In this document: positions 50,387 through 51,386 of the stretch, piece by piece
Numbering within the stretch: position 1 is the stretch's first letter
Layout of the letters: each line of letters starts with the position of its first letter
Assembly (NCBI GenBank): GCA_014653835.1
Contig: JACWDY010000007.1
Coordinates: 1-53,985 of the forward strand
DNA from: Pelagibacterales bacterium SAG-MED28
Lineage (GTDB): Bacteria > Pseudomonadota > Alphaproteobacteria > Pelagibacterales > Pelagibacteraceae
DNA length: 53,985 nt
Direction: 5' to 3'
Position numbers and translations under genes: made by a program
Notes under the pieces: generated by a model
Told to the model about the DNA's origin: nothing
The model's input: only the letters and a program-made list of their open reading frames with translations
Databases searched by the model: none

Positions 50387-50516
50387 ATTAAGAAATATAA
50401 TTAAATAATTTGCTTAAAAAAACATTGATATTACTAACTTTTTTAAAATTTAATAAAAATTTTAATAATTAATAAAAAATTTAAATTTTGAATCGATTTT
50501 ACAAATTAATTTATGT

Positions 50517-50576
50517 TTGACATGAATCTCTAATTAATTAATGTATTAATTAACAAACGAATCATTAAGATTTGTT
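50517..50576 (+). promoter_or_regulatory. Promoter/operator-like region of the polybasic mini-gene
   Basis: The 209 bp between the acyl-CoA synthetase and the mini-gene hold no gene. They contain a perfect -35 TTGACA (50517-50522) and a weak -10 (TAATGT, 16-bp spacing). A perfect 20-bp inverted repeat TTAATTAAT-GT-ATTAATTAA (50534-50553) overlaps the -10. Further on, AACAAA (50552-50557) and TTTGTT (50571-50576) could form a leader hairpin. Confidence 0.5.
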
Positions 50577-50595
50577 TACTAACCAGGGAGAAAAG

Positions 50596-50670
50596 ATGGC
50601 TAAAAGAAGAAAAAAAGCTAAAAAGAAAACTAAAAAGAAAGCTAAAAAAAGAAGAAGAAAAAGACGATAG
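50596..50670 (+). CDS. 24-residue Lys/Arg-rich peptide
   Basis: The frame reads MAKRRKKAKKKTKKK then AKKRRRKRR and stops at TAG (50668-50670). Apart from Met, three Ala and one Thr, every residue is Lys or Arg. A strong Shine-Dalgarno AGGGAG (50585-50590) is correctly spaced, unusual among the genes here. A promoter-like region lies upstream and an intrinsic terminator begins 15 bp downstream, so it forms a complete monocistronic unit. It is likely a nucleic-acid-binding peptide (RNA, DNA or ribosome); function is unknown. The Lys/Arg codons alone would not be persuasive, but the flanking signals are. Confidence 0.8.
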   Translation: MAKRRKKAKKKTKKKAKKRRRKRR

Positions 50671-50684
50671 TTTTCTCTTTAACT

Positions 50685-50722
50685 AAACGCCCTTTTTAAT
50701 TTTTTAAAGAGGGCGTTTTTTT
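50685..50722 (+). terminator. Intrinsic terminator after the polybasic mini-gene
   Basis: AAACGCCCU (50685-50693) pairs perfectly with AGGGCGUUU (50710-50718) around an AU-rich loop, and a T-run (50716-50722) follows. It ends the mini-gene transcript and abuts the stop of the convergent carD gene. In the opposite direction the T-run is poor, so it is mainly a plus-strand terminator. Confidence 0.88.
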
Positions 50723-51386
50723 ATTCTGCGTTTTCAGAAATATTCGTTCTACCTAAAGCTTTGTCCATTTTTTTTTGCGCTTCTTCAGAACTTGTTTTTA
50801 GAACCGCTTCAAACTCTGATTTTAATCTTTCATAAGCTTTCTCAAATAATTGTCGCTCCGAATAAGATTGATCAGCAATAATATCTGTATTTTTGTTTAG
50901 ATCTTTCACAACCTCTGCTAATTCATAGATTTTACCAGAATTGATTTTTTGATCATATTCTTGAGCTCTTCTACTCCACATTGTTCTCTTAATCTTTGGT
51001 TTTGTTTTTAAAATCGACACACATTTGTTGATTTGATTAATAGAAGAAATTGGTCTTAATTTAGATTGCTGATTTATTGGAACCGTTAAGGTCAATTTTT
51101 CCTTTTCAACTAATATTTTATAAAACTGAATATCTATTTCACCTATCTTAGCTTTCTCTATCGCAGTTATTTTACCTACACCGTGTTTTGGATAAACTAT
51201 ATAATCTTTTAAATTATAAATTTTTTTCTCAGTAGGTTGTTTTTTTATTTTCTTAATTTCTGGTTTTTCATCAGGACCAGGGATGGTGCTTTTTTTAACT
51301 GAGGATTTTAAAGAAGATTTAACTTTTCCCAATAATTTTACTTTCTTAACTTTTTTTACTTTTTTGACTTTTTTCTTTTTTGGCAT
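50721..51386 (-). CDS. carD: CarD family transcription regulator
   Basis: CarD-type proteins bind the RNA polymerase beta subunit and stabilise open complexes. The RNAP-interacting domain (~58-125) shows DYIVYPKHGVGKITAIEKAK, and the helical C-terminal DNA-binding half has MWSRRAQEYDQKINSG and YSERQLFEKAYERLKSE. The first ~55 residues are a Lys/Val/Ser extension with the repeat KKV in KKKKVKKVKKVKKVK. At 221 residues it is longer than the ~165-residue core for this reason. It is 6 bp downstream of fdxA. Confidence 0.92.
   Translation of the reverse strand: MPKKKKVKKVKKVKKVKLLGKVKSSLKSSVKKSTIPGPDEKPEIKKIKKQPTEKKIYNLKDYIVYPKHGVGKITAIEKAKIGEIDIQFYKILVEKEKLTLTVPINQQSKLRPISSINQINKCVSILKTKPKIKRTMWSRRAQEYDQKINSGKIYELAEVVKDLNKNTDIIADQSYSERQLFEKAYERLKSEFEAVLKTSSEEAQKKMDKALGRTNISENAE

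Follow-up and report, generated by a model that had tools for sequence, protein, structure and literature searches.

We found that the SAR11 bacteria examined carry, next to carD, a gene for a short peptide made almost entirely of Lys and Arg, and that this gene is a real, conserved, coding unit. Judging from its sequence, we estimate a probability of about 0.6 that the peptide is a minimal nucleoid polycation resembling the tail of histone H1, perhaps coordinated with HU. Few bacterial groups in the ocean are as abundant as SAR11. The peptide gene looks common to the order, and none of the family libraries searched contains a match to it. The starting point was a 53,985-nucleotide stretch of contig JACWDY010000007.1 from Pelagibacterales bacterium SAG-MED28, hereafter called the window.

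A conserved coding unit facing carD

The unit lies on the forward strand and begins with the –35 hexamer TTGACA (50517–50522). A candidate –10 (TAATGT, 50539–50544) follows after a 16-nt spacer; it is a weak match (3/6) and is absent among the computed promoter hits of the window. Transcription probably starts near 50551. The Shine-Dalgarno (SD) sequence GGGAG (50586–50590) precedes the peptide gene (50596–50670, with its ATG at 50596 and its stop codon at 50668–50670), which in translation reads MAKRRKKAKKKTKKKAKKRRRKRR, with Lys or Arg at 19 of 24 residues. An intrinsic terminator occupies 50685–50722 with a stem of 15 pairs (50685–50718) and then a T run, and the stop codon of carD falls inside this T run. 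The convergent neighbor carD itself is on the reverse strand (50721–51386; Pfam CarD_TRCF_RID, 2.7e-12; CarD_C, 4.3e-20). A first-pass annotation of this DNA had described the –35, SD, 24-codon frame, and terminator as one unit with no same-strand gene directly 3′ of it, and we could locate each of these parts and saw only the terminator and then carD downstream. Its statement that SDs are scarce in this genome also held; in a rough survey using longest-ATG starts, of 50 window ORFs with 120 aa or more, 3 had the 4-base core and 0 the 5-base core. Terminator-like sites between 42000 and 53985 numbered 9, against 3.4 expected.

Searched directly as a protein, the peptide matched 29 of the 147 family genomes (E ≤ 10). 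This yield was low owing to the short, low-complexity query, and we got round the problem by anchoring the search on carD. For this we looked at 142 SAR11 loci, 122 from Pelagibacteraceae and 20 from the sister family (f2), and set aside two at contig ends (L097 and L161). The Pelagibacteraceae genomes were those with a CarD match (116/147), of which 111 were used (G014, G046, G047, G054, and G060 were left out), and eleven extra loci from group g4 joined this set; the 31 genomes of 147 without a CarD match are outside the locus counts. The sister-family sample was 20 of 40 genomes with a CarD match. Results from this showed a Lys/Arg-rich frame converging on carD in all 140 SAR11 loci with room for it. 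Where a locus had room, the frame was on the strand opposite carD, at a distance of 46–70 nt in Pelagibacteraceae and of 34–41 nt in f2 (19/19 loci). The SD core and a stem-loop with a T run are likewise present in 140/140 loci, and TTGAC is kept in 138/138, the two others being too short upstream. Among named contigs the frame was found in 48/48 SAR11 loci with room, a count that leaves out L197 and L236 (no room) and includes some genomes of the first set.

As a comparison, we looked at carD loci from elsewhere in the Alphaproteobacteria, where 28 of 121 genomes with a CarD match provided loci. None of 58 non-SAR11 carD loci had the peptide frame (0/30 among named contigs and 0/28 in the class sample; the sets may overlap). 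Two non-SAR11 loci had small basic ORFs at a distance above 1.1 kb, which were not counted. A search with an 85-aa form of the peptide gave zero matches in 133 alphaproteobacterial genomes and is uninformative as evidence of absence. The first-pass annotation had suggested looking for the peptide in relatives and had named loss of the frame or SD, or frame-breaking indels, as signs against a coding gene. No such loss was seen, and only one locus of 140 (L110) has a changed A-run length, which shifts the final codons of the frame.

To compare codons we used close pairs within groups. Single-base codon differences were synonymous in 259 of 382 cases (0.68), where 0.18–0.25 would be expected, and K↔R exchanges made up 81 of the 123 replacements. 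By group, the synonymous and nonsynonymous counts were 104/22 in f2, 30/4 in g2, 47/31 in g4, 41/34 in g5, and 21/24 in g1; the signal is therefore weaker in g1, which is the window's genus. These counts omit L110 and 60 multi-base codon differences, and since the pairs are not independent they give a direction and not a test statistic. The 120 Pelagibacteraceae frames use codons for K, R, A, T, P, G, S, V, and M only, and D, E, N, and Q codons number zero in them, even though AAA becomes GAA by one A-to-G change. The frame is maintained for positive charge.

Peptide length and likeness to histone H1-type proteins

Peptide length varies among groups, with 21–24 aa in g1, 20–23 in g2, 19–23 in g3, 20–35 in g4, and 20–32 in g5, and longer forms of 31–38 aa in g9, 34–58 in g12, and 40–99 in f2. 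The range within Pelagibacteraceae is 19–58 aa and the window peptide has 24 aa. Repeats of the histone H1 type, rich in A, P, and K, are seen in the genus g12 and in all 19 sister-family loci that had room. The long forms hold AAPKKKRKAAKRKPAKKK-type repeats, which resemble the tail of AlgP, and those of the sister family sit at the same carD locus behind the same promoter box. Short and long forms are likely to share descent, and we infer that the short form arose by reduction of the long one, and not the other way round. A peptide of such low complexity should be disordered. The long f2 forms (L142–L160) open with a segment that is less basic (MEELKVIFAKA, MEDLKIIFAAA) and missing from the short forms, and in many of these genes another phase also contains a long open frame.

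Database searches assigned the peptide to no family. Low complexity of the query weakens these searches, which gave 0 Pfam families for the window peptide and four longer forms, one chance-level hit (E 0.76) and nothing else in NCBIfam, no credible match in PHROGs, and 0 matches up to E 10 in a phmmer search of the PDB, which has little power with a query of this kind. A 75-nt frame falls under the usual limits of gene callers and trypsin would cut the peptide after nearly every residue, which together may explain why the family has no name. A literature search at the level of titles and listings found no paper on a 24-aa SAR11 peptide. The available text on SAR11 strain HIMB5 describes at least three unnamed short ORFs (PMC6429828), and the peptide gene may be among them. 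Neither carD nor lysine is mentioned in the available part of PMC2704228.

The closest likeness is to AlgP and PhaF of Pseudomonas and Hc2 of Chlamydia, which likewise have low-complexity Lys-rich repeats of variable number (PMC9239181, PMC2848022, as far as the available text goes), and the AlgP tail has itself been compared with histone H1 (PMC9239181). The f2 (40–99 aa) and g12 (34–58 aa) forms match the K/A/P composition of these proteins and contain K/A/P tandem repeats. By contrast, the window peptide consists of K/R with A and T and has no proline and no folded domain. It is far shorter than AlgP, which extends to residue 352, or Hc2 (165–237 aa), and no curated H1-like profile in Pfam or NCBIfam matched it.

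The CGAATC box and its GANTC site

Between TTGAC and the SD, the only invariant block apart from TTGAC itself is CGAATC (50558–50563 in the window), which is present in 100% of the 140 loci and is followed by A in 99%. Columns around it are mostly 40–80% conserved, with a few spacer columns at 80–88%. The box lies 38–42 nt below the first T of TTGAC in the 138 loci where TTGAC was seen, and it is probably positioned just below the transcription start. The leader can fold into a 5′ hairpin, which in the window spans 50555–50577 (AAACGAATC-ATTAA-GATTTGTTT). Among 98 unique SAR11 leaders, the stems have 6–12 bp, every z is below –1 (mean –3.95), and CGAATC is in or beside the 5′ arm in 98/98. The G of the box is paired in 84 of these leaders and its partner is U (T) in 38 of the 84; because G–U pairing suits a DNA dyad less well, the hairpin is probably a feature of the RNA. 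The CGA is mostly unpaired in g5, g7, g9, and g12 and is nonetheless invariant there, which suggests that the box has a second role that depends on its sequence.

The first-pass annotation had placed a perfect 20-bp inverted repeat over the –10 and proposed it as a repressor or autoregulatory site. The AT-rich repeat is present at 50534–50553 on the forward strand, but its 9-bp arms flank a GT center that is not palindromic, and the regulatory proposal failed because the repeat is not conserved. Altered versions occur in a few close relatives, in many loci of this AT-rich DNA the best inverted repeats of at least 9 bp are at other upstream positions, and the conserved element is the CGAATC just below. 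The pattern CGAATCAN{0,8}TGATTYG was found only at the peptide gene, in 2/12 genomes, and therefore marks no regulon.

A similar box appears upstream of HU. In 6/12 genomes the best-scoring HU gene has CGA[A/T]TC exactly 39 nt below TTGAY; the carriers are two f2, two g9, one g5, and one g12 genome (L273, L274, L275, L281, L283, and L284). The box is missing in the other 6/12 genomes read, three from g1 (the window's genus), one from g2, and two from g4. The pattern TTGACN{33,37}CGAATC gave 13 matches in ten genomes, against 18 with the reversed-pattern control. These were the peptide gene in each of the ten, the HU upstream region in two f2 genomes, and one site elsewhere. In six genomes TTGAYN{33,37}ACGAWTC gave 10 matches (12 with the reversed control), which were four peptide genes, four HU genes, and two sites elsewhere, of which one was antisense within an ORF and the other overlapped the start of an ORF; the peptide genes of G003 and G005 were missed since they read GCGAATC. 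Match totals are thus not above those of the reversed controls, and it is the concentration on two promoters that is striking. A limitation of this comparison is that TTGAY...CGAWTC was chosen after the peptide gene and f2 were known; the ten HU promoters outside f2 therefore make the fairer test, and of these four were positive. A further 23 HU-family (PF00216) regions had no common box. By eye the HU leaders have no hairpin, and therefore box and hairpin are separable. In four lineages the promoter box is common to the peptide gene and the best-scoring HU gene.

The GAATC within the box is a GANTC site, the target of CcrM. Such sites are scarce in the window (92 against 149 expected from base composition), and three of them lie within the 74 bases of 50490–50563, compared with about one per 590 bases window-wide. 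GcrA (PF07750) is encoded in 12/12 SAR11 genomes. So is the RAMA domain (PF18755), with one copy having an internal stop; this is a domain of CcrM-type enzymes and is not proof of CcrM. The available text of PMC3973325 states that SAR11 has a CcrM homologue. According to the part of PMC9516812 available, 99.86% of GANTC sites are fully methylated in cultured Pelagibacter NP1, and in sea samples GANTC methylation is lower and unmethylated sites are often intergenic. Genes regulated by CcrM and GcrA would be expected to have a conserved GANTC in the promoter region in a genome encoding both proteins. The peptide gene has the site at near-fixed spacing in 140/140 loci, and GcrA, RAMA, and the stated CcrM homologue (PMC3973325) cover the two proteins. 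In this it is like the Caulobacter promoters of mipZ, podJ, and ctrA P1, where GANTC is conserved in the promoter region (PMC3667746, available text) and the SAR11 genome likewise has GcrA and a RAMA-domain protein; it differs in that its GANTC is probably just below the start and in a hairpin arm. GcrA genes themselves had GANTC within 130 bases above their start in only 1/5 promoters.

Possible roles of the peptide

A nucleic-acid-condensing peptide was the first candidate named at the first pass, and it is the best supported, given the H1-tail-like forms of f2 and the box shared with HU. As a nucleoid polycation, the peptide would bind DNA, and perhaps RNA too, by charge and would compact or neutralize the nucleoid alongside HU. 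It may be produced in quantity from a short mRNA with the 5′ hairpin and the terminator at its ends, the hairpin stabilizing the message, and by analogy with other alphaproteobacterial GANTC promoters its transcription could be timed by CcrM methylation and GcrA. Against this reading, the HU box is missing in 6/12 genomes, the window's genus included. If the peptide does act on the nucleoid, it would mark how small an H1-type DNA condenser can be in nature and offer a handle on chromosome packing and its timing in very small, streamlined cells, and the GANTC site would tie CcrM methylation to SAR11 nucleoid genes in a direct way that can be tested.

A more specific version is possible and we put it forward tentatively. 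Here an H1-like chromatin protein would have been cut down to about the shortest polycation that can still work, a gene-encoded, polyamine-like counter-ion for the nucleoid with 19–24 aa in several genera. It would be expressed at a fixed stage of the cell cycle, in some lineages together with HU, with CcrM methylation at the start site gating the promoters. If this is true, such a gene is easily overlooked, as trypsin destroys the peptide and gene callers tend to skip the frame. The class of H1-like polycations is known; what is new is how small the peptide is, how widely it occurs in the order, and that it has a GANTC box in common with HU.

The ribosomal mini-proteins eL41 and bTHX are also about 25 residues long and highly basic. 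A similar association of the SAR11 peptide with the ribosome or rRNA would fit its 24 residues, nearly all K or R, and the clear SD and –35, which suggest high output. By contrast, a range of 19–99 aa with repeat expansion is unlike a fixed ribosomal site, the promoter box is common with HU, no ribosomal gene adjoins the peptide gene, and there is no sequence match to eL41 or bTHX or to a solved protein of this type in the PDB, which with so low-powered a search is a weak test. We therefore regard a ribosomal role as unlikely. That the peptide is a partner of CarD, the two acting with the basic CarD tail on transcription initiation at AT-rich promoters, seems quite unlikely to us. The peptide gene adjoins carD in each locus examined and none of the non-SAR11 loci examined has it, but since carD was the anchor this adjacency is partly by design, and synteny in streamlined genomes can be passive. 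The genes are convergent and not co-transcribed. SAR11 CarD does have a Lys-rich tail at its N terminus, which, among the proteins listed, is missing from many CarD proteins of other Alphaproteobacteria. In Myxococcus CarD, with its HMGA-like domain, a basic disordered tail is likewise tied to a CarD-family module, and such a tail, even that of H1, suffices for function (PMC8156234, available text); the SAR11 tail, however, is N-terminal, and the peptide has its own convergent gene and lacks the RGRP AT-hook.

A leader peptide that responds to Lys/Arg, or a non-coding small RNA in which the frame is incidental, would account for a short K/R frame ahead of a terminator and for the 5′ hairpin. 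We consider this highly improbable. Downstream are the terminator and convergent carD and no regulated same-strand gene, so that the leader peptide, already graded as less likely at the first pass, found no support, and codons show selection with the frame kept over 19–99 aa. Rfam gave no family at gathering score except tRNA elsewhere, and the sub-threshold hits in this region were confined in 12/12 cases to the 3′ part and terminator, which also disfavors a small RNA.

Several minor features of the carD neighborhood were also seen. On the carD strand, the preceding genes are fdxA and, adjoining it, a TerB-domain gene (Pfam PF05099; 51731–52120, reverse strand), together with a long frame that is, by eye, presumably helicase-like. 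Among the tails listed, the Lys-rich N-terminal tail of SAR11 CarD is short in the window, and g4 and f2 have longer ones. Of the 28 CarD proteins from other Alphaproteobacteria, many have no such tail and some, for example L163, L166, L167, and L186, have one. The carD match of L030 (genome G027) has an in-frame TAA, and contig C6 of G030 (9.6 kb) carries two carD matches in opposite orientation, perhaps an assembly artefact.
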